A stretch of 42,021 bases of DNA, from assembly GCA_020428905.1 (NCBI GenBank), contig JAGQLY010000018.1, positions 1 to 42,021 of the forward strand, in the 5' to 3' direction. The notes below the pieces were generated by a model. That model saw only the letters and a program-made list of their open reading frames with translations, was not told where the DNA came from and did not search any database. Shown in pieces: positions 38,356 through 42,021 of this stretch. Made by a program: the position numbers and the translations under genes. Position 1 is the first letter of the stretch. Every line of letters begins with the position of its first letter. This DNA is from Candidatus Kaiserbacteria bacterium (GTDB lineage: Bacteria; Patescibacteriota; Minisyncoccia; Phycocordibacterales; UBA918).

Positions 38356-38366
38356 AATATGATCCT

Positions 38367-38381
38367 CCTGCCTCAGGCAGG
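38367..38381 (-). promoter_or_regulatory. Hairpin abutting the Shine-Dalgarno of the 106-aa orphan
   Basis: CCTGCC-TGA-GGCAGG on the minus strand; the last two or three bases of the right arm are shared with the AGGAGG Shine-Dalgarno, so folding could hinder ribosome binding. Confidence 0.45.
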
Positions 38382-38415
38382 TGAAAAAACTGGTGGGGGC
38401 AAAAATCCGGGCAGC

Positions 38416-38444
38416 ATAATAACCCAATTATATTGCTATGTCAA
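38416..38444 (-). promoter_or_regulatory. Sigma-70 promoter of the 106-aa orphan
   Basis: On the minus strand TTGACA (38439-38444), 17-nt spacer, TATTAT (38416-38421). The start codon is 60 nt further on. Confidence 0.8.
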
Positions 38445-38472
38445 TGACTCTCGGTGGACAGTGCCGCTCTGT

Positions 38473-38478
38473 TATAAT
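38473..38478 (+). promoter_or_regulatory. -10 hexamer of dnaE (leaderless type)
   Basis: TATAAT with a TGT extension, 9 nt before the ATG at 38488. No clear -35. Confidence 0.6.
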
Positions 38479-38487
38479 GGCAAGACT

Positions 38488-41400
38488 ATGGCAGAAAAAG
38501 TGAGTGCGGAAAATACCGAAGCGATGGAAACGGCGCACAGCGATGTCCGCTTTGTTCATCTCCATACACACAGTCACTATTCCCTTCTCAACGCCATTCC
38601 CACAACCAAAGAACTGGCGGCGGCAGCGAAAGCCGACGGAATGCCCGCACTTGCACTCACCGACGCTGGTGCACTCTACGGTGCCATTGATTTTTATAAA
38701 TCATGTACGAAGGAAGGTATTAAGCCAATCATCGGACTCGACGCCTACCTCGCCCCACGTACCCTCCACGACAAAGATGCTGGCATAGACAAGCCCCGCG
38801 GGCGTGCTGTTTTTCTTGCTAAGAGCCACACCGGATATGTGAACCTTATCAAGATGGTCACCCGCTCTTTCGTTGACGGCTTTTACTACAAACCTCGCAT
38901 CGACCATGCGCTTATTGAGGAGCTTCACGAAGACGTAGTGTGTATCTTGCCCTCATTTAGTGGCGAACCAGCACTCGCACTCAAAGATGACGACACCGAA
39001 GCAGCCGGTGCTGTCCTCGATTGGTACCGCGGCATTTTTGGTGACGACTGCTACCTCGAACTCACGCACCATCCAGAAATTACAGGACACGAAGAGCTGC
39101 AAGAAAAAATTCGGGCACTCGCAACGACTACAAACACACCCCTCGTCGCGGCGCATGATGTGTACTACCTCAAACCCGAAGACCACCTTGCACGCGAAGT
39201 AATGCTCAAAATCCAAAATGGCGGCGCAGTCGAAGACACCAACGCCTTTGAAGAAGGAACTGCGCCGGACTTTTCATTTATCACCCAAGAGAAAGCTGTC
39301 GAGCTCTTCACTGACACCCCTGAAGCAGTAGCGAATACGCTCAAGATCGCAGAGAAGTGTACCGTCGAAATGACACCCGGCGAAACCTGGTACTTCCCAA
39401 ACTACATCATTGAAAGTGGTCGCGAGCCAGACGACGAACTCCGTATCACCGCAGAAGAGGGCGTGTCGTGGCGCGGGCTTGATCCGGAAGATCCAGTGGT
39501 GAGAGAACGCCTCCACTATGAGCTTGGGGTCATTAAGGCAAAGGGATACGCAAAATATTTCCTCGTGGTGGGAGATCTCATTCGTGAAGCGCGCGAGCGA
39601 AATATTTTGACCACCATTCGTGGTTCGGTCGCAGGATCACTTACCACGTACGTCCTCGGAATTACCAATGTAAACCCGCTCGAATATCGACTTCCCTTCG
39701 AGCGCTTTCTTAATCCGGAACGACCGTCGGCCCCGGATATCGACATGGACTTCGCCGATAATCGTCGCGATGAGATTATTGCGTATGCCCGTGAAAAGTA
39801 CGGGGCTGACAAGGTGGCGCAGATTGGTACCTTCGGGACCATGATGGCACGCGCAGCGGTGCGTGATACGGCGCGCGCGCTCGGCTTCCCGTATGCGACC
39901 GGCGACCGTATTGCAAAACTCATTCCCATGGGCAGCCAAGGGTTCCCGATGACGATCGCGCGCGCACTTGAAATCGAACCCGATCTCAAGGAACTTTACG
40001 CCAAAGACACTGAGACACAGGAAGTTATAAACCTTGCACGACAAATAGAGGGGCGGGCGCGACACCTTGGTGTACACGCAGCTGGTGTAGTGATCGCGCC
40101 GCGCCCGCTCGATGAGTTCACCCCCGTCCAGCCCGATCCAAAGACCGGAAAGCTCATTACCCAATACGAAATGCACAGCGTCGGCGAGGATGGTGTCGGG
40201 CTCTTGAAGTTTGACTTCCTCGGTATCAAAAACCTTGCCATTCTCGCCGATGCGGTCGATCGCGTACGTGCTATTCATGGCGTGAAGATTGATATCGAAA
40301 ACATCCCCGTCGATGACAAAAAAACGTTCGCGATGCTCGCACGCGGCGAAACCATGGGACTCTTCCAGCTCAATGGTTCCGGTATGACGGCGTTTCTCAA
40401 GCAACTGCGGCCGACGACCATCTACGATATCAACGCGATGGTGGCACTGTATCGCCCGGGACCGATGGAGTCTATCCCCCAGTACATTGAGCGCAAACAT
40501 GCACCGAATCTTGTTTCCTATCTCGATCCCCGTCTTGAACATATTCTCAACCGTTCGTATGGCGTGATCACCTACCAGGACGACGTGATGATGATTGCTA
40601 TTGAGCTTGCGGGATACTCGTGGCTCGATGCTGACAAACTCCGAAAAGCAATGGGAAAGAAGATTCCTGAAGTGATGGAGGCCGAAAAAGAAAAGTTACT
40701 CTCCGGCTTCGTTGAGTACGGCAAACTGTCTGCCTCTGTTGCAGACAAGCTCTGGAAGCTTATTGAGCCATTTGCCGCATACGGATTCAATAAAGCGCAT
40801 GCGGCAAGCTATGGTCGTGTCGCGTACCAGACCGCATACATGAAGGCGAATTATCCTGTTGAGTACATGTCGGCAGTGCTCACGGCTGACGCCGGAGACA
40901 CCGAGAAGATTTCAGAAATAATTCACGAATGTGAACGTATGGGTATCGAGGTGCTGCCGCCGGATATCAACGAAAGCTACTCCGCCTTTTCGGTAGTGCC
41001 TGCCAAGGGTACGGTTGAGGCAAAGATTCGATTTGGGCTCACTACTATCAAAAACTTCGGTGAGGGTGTCGCAGACACCATCATTCGTGAGCGCAAAAAC
41101 AACGGCCCGTACACCTCCATCACCGACTTCCTCACTCGCGTCACTGATCGCAGTTTAAATAAAAAGTCGCTTGAAGCACTCATTATGACAGGCGCATTCG
41201 ACCAGTTTGAAGAGCGTGGCATCATGCTCTTCAATCTCGATACCCTTCTTGGATTTAACAAAGAACAAACTGCGGGCAAAGAGGCATCGCAAGATTCTCT
41301 CTTTGCCGCCGTCGGTGATACGAGCGTACACACCATCACCCTCACGGAAGGATCTCCGGCAACAACCGCTGAAAAATTAACTTGGGAAAAAGAACTCCTC

Positions 41401-41766
41401 GGCGTCTACGTCTCCGGCCACCCACTCGACCAACACACTGAAGAACTCAAGAAACGCCCGAGCATCGGCGTTCTCAAAGCCGACGGGAGAAACGGCATTC
41501 CAATTGTGACTGCCGGTATGGTGGAGACAGTGCGAGAACTCCTTACAAAAAAGGGAGATCGTATGGCCTTCGTACAGCTCGCAAATCAGTCTGATGCAAT
41601 CGAGATGGTCGCCTTCCCCGAAACCTACCGCGCATACCAAGCACTACTACAACCTGGCACCTGCGTTGCAGTGAAGGGGCGCCTCTCCGTACGCAATGAC
41701 GAACCAACAATCGCCCTTGAGAAAGTAAAGTCGCTTGCACCGAGCACTGAGAGCGAGCCGTCTTAG
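38488..41766 (+). CDS. dnaE: DNA polymerase III subunit alpha
   Basis: A 1092-aa replicative polymerase. An N-terminal PHP domain (FVHLHTHSHYSLLNAIP to GIKPIIGLDAYL) is followed by the polymerase palm with the catalytic PDIDMDFADNRR, fingers with ARHLGVHAAGVVIAP, the tandem HhH region (KAHAASYGRVAYQTAYMK nearby) and a C-terminal OB fold. In the PHP domain, family metal ligands are partly replaced: the usual L-D-G is LNA, T-D-H-G is TDAG, and G-x-E is GLD, so PHP exonuclease activity is doubtful. The ATG at 38488 (MAEKV) is chosen over the frame start at 38359 because TATAAT ends 9 nt upstream. A T-box leader follows. Confidence 0.97.
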   Translation: MAEKVSAENTEAMETAHSDVRFVHLHTHSHYSLLNAIPTTKELAAAAKADGMPALALTDAGALYGAIDFYKSCTKEGIKPIIGLDAYLAPRTLHDKDAGIDKPRGRAVFLAKSHTGYVNLIKMVTRSFVDGFYYKPRIDHALIEELHEDVVCILPSFSGEPALALKDDDTEAAGAVLDWYRGIFGDDCYLELTHHPEITGHEELQEKIRALATTTNTPLVAAHDVYYLKPEDHLAREVMLKIQNGGAVEDTNAFEEGTAPDFSFITQEKAVELFTDTPEAVANTLKIAEKCTVEMTPGETWYFPNYIIESGREPDDELRITAEEGVSWRGLDPEDPVVRERLHYELGVIKAKGYAKYFLVVGDLIREARERNILTTIRGSVAGSLTTYVLGITNVNPLEYRLPFERFLNPERPSAPDIDMDFADNRRDEIIAYAREKYGADKVAQIGTFGTMMARAAVRDTARALGFPYATGDRIAKLIPMGSQGFPMTIARALEIEPDLKELYAKDTETQEVINLARQIEGRARHLGVHAAGVVIAPRPLDEFTPVQPDPKTGKLITQYEMHSVGEDGVGLLKFDFLGIKNLAILADAVDRVRAIHGVKIDIENIPVDDKKTFAMLARGETMGLFQLNGSGMTAFLKQLRPTTIYDINAMVALYRPGPMESIPQYIERKHAPNLVSYLDPRLEHILNRSYGVITYQDDVMMIAIELAGYSWLDADKLRKAMGKKIPEVMEAEKEKLLSGFVEYGKLSASVADKLWKLIEPFAAYGFNKAHAASYGRVAYQTAYMKANYPVEYMSAVLTADAGDTEKISEIIHECERMGIEVLPPDINESYSAFSVVPAKGTVEAKIRFGLTTIKNFGEGVADTIIRERKNNGPYTSITDFLTRVTDRSLNKKSLEALIMTGAFDQFEERGIMLFNLDTLLGFNKEQTAGKEASQDSLFAAVGDTSVHTITLTEGSPATTAEKLTWEKELLGVYVSGHPLDQHTEELKKRPSIGVLKADGRNGIPIVTAGMVETVRELLTKKGDRMAFVQLANQSDAIEMVAFPETYRAYQALLQPGTCVAVKGRLSVRNDEPTIALEKVKSLAPSTESEPS

Positions 41767-41790: not shown

Positions 41791-41818
41791 TTGACAACCG
41801 CGACGAGCGCGGTACCAT
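41791..41818 (+). promoter_or_regulatory. Promoter of the T-box transcript
   Basis: TTGACA (41791-41796), 16-nt spacer, TACCAT (41813-41818). The spacer contains an ACCGCG/CGCGGT inverted repeat. Transcription would start near 41825. Confidence 0.55.
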
Positions 41819-41824
41819 GATCTA

Positions 41825-42004
41825 CACAGAGATTGCAGTGATCACCATCCACTGTCCTATAAAGGAGCACTCGTGCCTAATCTGTACTAATGAAGTACCT
41901 GTCCGGCATATCGGGCAGGAAACTCGGTGGAACCGCGGTCACACGCCAGATCGCCCGAGTGAAAATACGACTCCGTCGTTTTTTCACTCGGGCGCTTTTG
42001 TTTT
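41825..42004 (+). promoter_or_regulatory. T-box riboswitch (tRNA-sensing leader)
   Basis: The T-box sequence TGGAACCGCGG is at 41928-41938, flanked by ACTCGG (41922-41927), which pairs with CCGAGT (41955-41960) to make the antiterminator. That same CCGAGT is part of the terminator stem at 41952-41994, so the two folds exclude each other. Upstream, CCTGTCCG/CGGGCAGG (41898-41919) fits Stem III. The first domain is only about 60 nt: ACAGA (41826-41830) pairs with TCTGT (41881-41885) with a GA bulge, and inside is CAGTG-ATCACCATC-CACTG (41836-41854). A specifier AUC (Ile) in that terminal loop is my inference, recalling ultrashort Stem I ileS T-boxes of actinobacteria. The regulated gene, probably an aminoacyl-tRNA synthetase, lies beyond the window. 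Confidence 0.88.
41952..42004 (+). terminator. T-box regulated intrinsic terminator
   Basis: CGCCCGAGTGAAAA (41952-41965) pairs with 41981-41994; after one T-T mismatch ACGAC/GTCGT extends the stem. CTTTTGTTTT follows (41995-42004). Confidence 0.9.
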
Positions 42005-42021
42005 ATTACTATGTACACACG

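Follow-up and report, generated by a model that had tools for sequence, protein, structure and literature searches.

A candidate transcription-terminating T-box riboswitch for tRNA-Thr with a compact, junction-like decoding domain in Patescibacteria

Which tRNA is read by a T-box leader whose decoding part is very short, and does such a leader fit any T-box class described so far? Both questions arise at the 3′ end of the stretch of DNA analysed here (the window, 42,021 bases), which is one whole contig (C11) and whose 3′ end is the contig end. An earlier note, made from the letters alone, had placed a T-box core, an antiterminator, a mutually exclusive terminator with a U-tract, a Stem III and a promoter of the leader's own in this region, and we recovered all of these elements in the same places. 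The features, all on the forward strand, are as follows.

38359-41766 (+): dnaE (DNA polymerase III alpha), the upstream syntenic neighbour, from Pfam
41791-41818 (+): promoter, with -35 TTGACA at 41791-41796 and -10 TACCAT at 41813-41818, from a consensus scan
41826-41830 (+): P1 5′ strand ACAGA, which closes the decoding domain by pairing with 41881-41885, from family pairing
41831-41835 (+): GAUUG linking P1 to the specifier hairpin (a purine bulge GA, then UUG), kept across families along with CUAA
41836-41854 (+): P2, the specifier hairpin, CAGUG-loop-CACUG, from covariation
41844-41846 (+): specifier codon ACC (Thr), followed by A41847, from the alignment and the tRNA-Thr anticodon GGU
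41856-41865 (+): P3, variable hairpin CCU-AUAA-AGG, from minimum-energy folds
41867-41876 (+): P4, variable hairpin GCA-CUCG-UGC directly 5′ of CUAA, from hairpin counts against shuffles
41877-41885 (+): conserved CUAA and P1 3′ strand UCUGU, from the alignment, pairing and other families
41893-41921 (+): Stem III (41898-41919) with 5′ flank AAGUA and 3′ flank AA, from sequence and alignment
41923-41959 (+): antiterminator, with A1 CUCGG/CCGAG, bulge UGGAACC and A2 GCGGUC/GAUCGC, from RF00230 and covariation
41923-41927 with 41955-41959 (+): A1 helix, from sequence
41928-41931 (+): T-box bulge UGGA, from sequence and U73 of tRNA-Thr
41935-41940 with 41949-41954 (+): A2 helix, from sequence
41952-42007 (+): intrinsic terminator, with a hairpin at 41952-41994 and a U-rich tail at 41995-42007, from fold energy
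42011-42021 (+): probable thrS start (ATG TAC ACA CG...), cut by the contig end, from thrS on contig C24 and the gene order of relatives

The promoter agrees with the consensus at 10 of 12 positions around a 16-nt spacer, and the transcript is expected to start at about 41825-41826. Most homologous leaders have TTGAC and TAnnAT-like elements upstream at a similar distance. Folded as a whole, the leader reaches z = -6.7 relative to shuffles and is therefore more than a chance structure. The covariance-model search that the earlier note had proposed gave a match to the discriminator half only (RF00230; 23.8 bits, E 0.0022 in a 422-nt search), far short of the gathering score of 93. That score is a curator's threshold rather than a biological feature, and the shortfall explains why standard annotation misses the leader. 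In a permissive Rfam scan the terminator hairpin also drew miRNA matches, which are due to chance.

The 5′ flank of Stem III, which in the family is mostly AAGNG (with AA as the 3′ flank) and corresponds to the RRRNG motif (as defined in PMC7778990), reads AAGUA in the window, with A in place of the last G. Pairing in the antiterminator is supported by covariation across leaders of many genes, with a score of 0.538 compared with 0.193 after shuffling. The 3′ strand of A1 is common to antiterminator and terminator, so the two helices are mutually exclusive, and the terminator hairpin is predicted at -31.5 kcal/mol as against -12.7 for the antiterminator segment alone. A terminator was found in all 29 family leaders, that is, in the present leader and its 28 homologues. 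The suggestion that a CPR (Patescibacteria) genome would here carry a transcription-terminating T-box with a very short decoding part is borne out.

The gene after the leader is very probably thrS, the leader-thrS join spanning more than one contig in this assembly. Only 11 bases of the probable gene are readable on C11 (ATG at 42011). The genome's own thrS is 5′-truncated at the very end of contig C24, where only about the first 15 codons are missing, and it scores 605.6 bits on TIGR00418 (cut-off 383.65). The ends of both contigs agree with leader and thrS being neighbours; a search for a tail overlap between C11 and C24 found none. In relatives, dnaE lies immediately upstream of the leader in 26 of 28 family loci, in the order dnaE-leader-thrS, and the same order is therefore very probable here. 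Of the 28 homologous leaders from the same family, all those whose 3′ sequence is readable are followed by thrS. The leader was found in 42 of the 49 genomes of its family. A pattern search for it matched 32 named genome contigs, with a ThrRS start motif within reach on the 3′ side in 24; where their titles name a taxon it is always Patescibacteria, mostly Candidatus Kaiserbacteria and Paceibacterota, and a few titles give only 'bacterium'.

Aligning the 29 leaders allowed us to ask which triplet serves as the specifier. ACC at 41844-41846 is invariant (29/29) and is followed by A in 28 of 29; it is complementary to anticodon GGU of a tRNA-Thr encoded in this genome. ARAGORN places tRNA-Thr GGU, UGU and CGU among the genome's tRNA loci, all with U73, a discriminator base shared only by Thr and Cys among the tRNAs found. 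The UGGA bulge forms all four pairs only with UCCA, which tRNA-Thr with U73 supplies. Since codon, downstream gene and discriminator base agree, the leader reads as a sensor of tRNA-Thr. The earlier note had favoured tRNA-Ile, read through AUC at 41841-41843, and had listed ACC and CAC as other readings of the loop. AUC is indeed present there, followed by A as in ileS T-boxes, and the CAGTG/CACTG hairpin was correctly located at 41836-41854 with AUC inside its 9-nt loop. This triplet is nevertheless out of register with the aligned specifier: its column holds GCU, ACU, CUU, UCU and others in homologues, whereas the AUC of ileS leaders lies three positions further on, where the family has its ACC. 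The downstream thrS also speaks against tRNA-Ile, as does A73 of this genome's tRNA-Ile, which cannot complete pairing with UGGA, and we regard an ultrashort Ile-sensing T-box as next to impossible. The earlier note had itself named the lack of a conserved AUC in related leaders as a reason to abandon its proposal; that lack is what the alignment displays, and it removes the Ile reading while leaving the T-box reading standing. Of the two substitutes, ACC turned out to be the aligned specifier, and CAC is an unconserved triplet. Sensing of tRNA-His through CAC (41843-41845) was likewise rejected, as a tRNA-His with the usual C73 would need UGGG, the bulge seen in a hisG leader. Separately, at locus L048 (G000:C25:4485-4557) ARAGORN reports a tRNA-Ile with anticodon UAU beside a tRNA-Ile GAU, which is unusual for bacteria.

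The decoding part had been estimated at about 60 nt. Its length is 58 nt in the window (54-103 nt in the family), in line with that estimate, yet it is more than a specifier hairpin, as P1 encloses P2 and two further hairpins. The comparison of homologous leaders that had been proposed revealed strong covariation: P2 shows two-sided covariation in all 6 pairs of the family helix, with 94.8% of cells paired. The family loop has 7 nt; an A.C closing pair widens it to 9 nt in the window. The four inner pairs of P1 are paired in 100% of the 29 leaders, as CAGA/UCUG. In 7 of 17 leaders of other families, P1 forms with wholly different sequence around GAUUG...CUAA (GGUUG once), for example GGCGAU/GUCGUU, AAAAC/GUUUU, UUUCCU/AGGAAA and UAUCAGC/GCUGAUA, compared with 0.6 on average and 3 at most when 3′ parts were swapped. 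Most free minimum-energy folds in the family choose another P1 register, AGAUUG/UAAUCU, which we rejected because its outer pairs are disrupted in each of the seven leaders outside the family in which the P1 used here is kept. Across the family, both the sequence and the length of P3 and P4 are variable. A hairpin of at least 3 pairs ends at CUAA in 23 of 29 leaders, compared with 8.5 expected from shuffles, and 27 of 29, folded freely to minimum energy, show an outer helix with at least 3 hairpins. The specifier hairpin is thus apparently one arm of a four-way junction. Judged by sequence only, no IDTM, stem II S-turn or IIA/B pseudoknot is recognisable in the decoding domain, and 27 of 29 family domains lack AGUA, the S-turn word.

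These features point to a T-box riboswitch for thrS that acts by transcription termination and senses uncharged tRNA-Thr(GGU), a reading to which we assign a probability of roughly 0.93. In this mechanism, ACC in the P2 loop, on one arm of the compact junction, would pair with anticodon GGU. The 3′ end of uncharged tRNA-Thr, UCCA, would pair with the UGGA bulge and stabilise the antiterminator, and RNA polymerase would then read on into thrS. With charged tRNA-Thr the bulge would stay unfilled, the 3′ strand of A1 would join the terminator hairpin, and transcription would stop. For this proposal, the alignments supply the helices, the identity of the specifier, the match between bulge and discriminator base, the competition with the terminator and the gene context; binding of the tRNA, sensing of its charge and read-through are what analogy with described T-boxes predicts. 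One could instead suppose a decayed T-box that terminates or attenuates thrS constitutively and senses no tRNA. Indeed, no IDTM or stem II is recognisable in the leader, and one relative, G108 (L032/L081), has no specifier hairpin between promoter and Stem III. Decay is very improbable all the same, because P2, P1 and the antiterminator have changed in a compensatory way and ACC and UGGA are strictly conserved, which shows selection on both tRNA contacts.

How the proposed tRNA-Thr sensor relates to known T-boxes depends on its decoding domain. Four classes are described: in I and II, which are generally transcriptional, stem I is long and carries the IDTM, whereas III and IV have a short or intermediate stem I, lack an IDTM and are mostly translational, class III requiring stem II (PMC10482949). 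IDTM and stem II augment tRNA binding in described T-boxes, and a long stem I bearing the IDTM is described as a general requirement of transcriptional members (PMC7583486). With class I (B. subtilis tyrS type, RF00230) the present leader shares Stem III, the UGGN bulge in a two-helix antiterminator, a competing intrinsic terminator and a downstream aminoacyl-tRNA synthetase gene. It has a 58-nt domain in place of the long stem I with IDTM and stem II, however, and an apical specifier rather than one in an internal loop. Class II (glyQS) is also transcriptional and works without stem II, but has a long IDTM stem I and is glycine-specific. Class III (ileS of Nocardia farcinica and Mycobacterium) comes closest in its short stem I without IDTM, its apical specifier followed by A and its canonical discriminator domain. 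It differs in having an RBS switch, where the family here has a transcription terminator (29/29) and a Thr codon, a specifier loop of 5-6 nt (7 nt in the family, 9 nt in the window), and a stem II S-turn with IIA/B pseudoknot, where here neither is recognisable by sequence and P3 and P4 lie inside P1. The parallel with the ultrashort actinobacterial ileS leaders drawn in the earlier note therefore holds for the short stem I with its specifier in an apical loop and goes no further. A short decoder with an apical specifier, a terminator and no recognisable stem II fits none of the four classes, while its discriminator domain and its logic keep the leader among the T-boxes.

One possible explanation is a disguised class III T-box, in which P2 and P1 are the short stem I, and P3, P4 and CUAA are a shrunken stem II with IIA/B that clamps the codon-anticodon helix, here coupled to a terminator. 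The short stem I and the apical-loop specifier followed by A are as in class III (PMC10482949, PMC7583486), and Ile leaders of the same phylum look intermediate by eye, with longer domains resembling stem II-IIA/B. We consider this unlikely, as P1 closes around P3 and P4, a topology unlike stem I followed by stem II, P3 and P4 are free to vary in sequence and length, the AGUA S-turn word is missing from 27 of 29 domains, and the specifier loop has 7 nt rather than 5-6. We somewhat favour a fifth T-box class across Patescibacteria, in which a closed four-way junction, P1-GAUUG-P2-P3-P4-CUAA-P1′, would decode tRNA-Thr and act by antitermination without IDTM or stem II.

The same discriminator is widespread in the phylum. 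A model of this domain (R2), run on 380 sampled Patescibacteria genomes, found matches in 131, and about 110 T-box loci were read, with genes assigned by NCBIfam for representatives and by BLAST cluster or eye for the rest. Downstream genes include ileS, thrS, glyS, valS, aspS, lysS, proS, alaS, argS, tyrS and trpS, as well as argG, argH and hisG; in loci L074-L184, many synthetase and amino-acid genes are preceded by a T-box discriminator. We compared the downstream gene with the triplet that occupies positions 3-5 of a 7-nt hairpin loop and precedes an A; the two agree in 28 of 70 leaders, relative to 9.0 ± 2.4 (maximum 18) in 10,000 shuffles of the labels, a figure that is not a strict probability because the leaders share common descent. 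The loop is typically CU-ACC-AA in front of thrS, CU-AUC-AA in front of ileS and UU-GGC-AA in front of glyS; at the same loop position in other Patescibacteria, GGC or GGA precedes some glyS genes. The bulge follows the expected discriminator base, with UGGA for Thr (17/17) and Gly (10/10), UGGC for Asp (7/7) and UGGG for His (1/1), and UGGU for Ile (17/22) and also for Val, Arg, Pro and Tyr. The Rfam gathering score is reached by 0 of 20 representative loci, so these leaders escape routine annotation. The R1 hits L089 and L091 are false positives with no T-box core.

Most T-boxes described so far come from Gram-positive bacteria (PMC10482949, PMC2494555). In the literature searched we found no paper linking them with Patescibacteria or CPR, and earlier sightings are possible. 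A large, terminator-linked family with a decoder of 54-103 nt makes the minimum RNA for reading a tRNA directly testable. It also points to control of synthetase genes by amino-acid starvation in ultra-small bacteria that depend on hosts and about whose regulation little is known.

Several individual loci add to this picture. In the glyS leaders L093, L148 and L183, the whole 5′ domain looks like one hairpin, about 35-40 nt long, and neither stem II nor IDTM is evident; these are possibly the smallest T-boxes. The ileS leaders L087, L092, L115, L134, L137 and L138 have a short stem I, an apical specifier (such as CUAUCAA) and apparent stem II-IIA/B-like elements, and several end in a terminator-like hairpin; they are possibly class III-like but transcriptional. 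In the dnaE-thrS gap at L032:1440-1600 / L081 (G108:C1:207377-207451), the promoter runs straight into Stem III, antiterminator and terminator, leaving a T-box with no visible specifier domain. A Thr-type leader at L170 (G510:C40:18515-20353), with ACC and a P1 of 10 pairs, stands before a GNAT-like acetyltransferase frame, not thrS. The ThrRS frames of L007-L033 and L074-L085 begin almost at the RH(S/T)LAH motif and seem to be missing the N-terminal TGS domain. In L005, L191, L194, L200 and others, ThrRS matches only from about residue 162 of the genome's own ThrRS, and the part preceding the catalytic core seems to be absent from these proteins.
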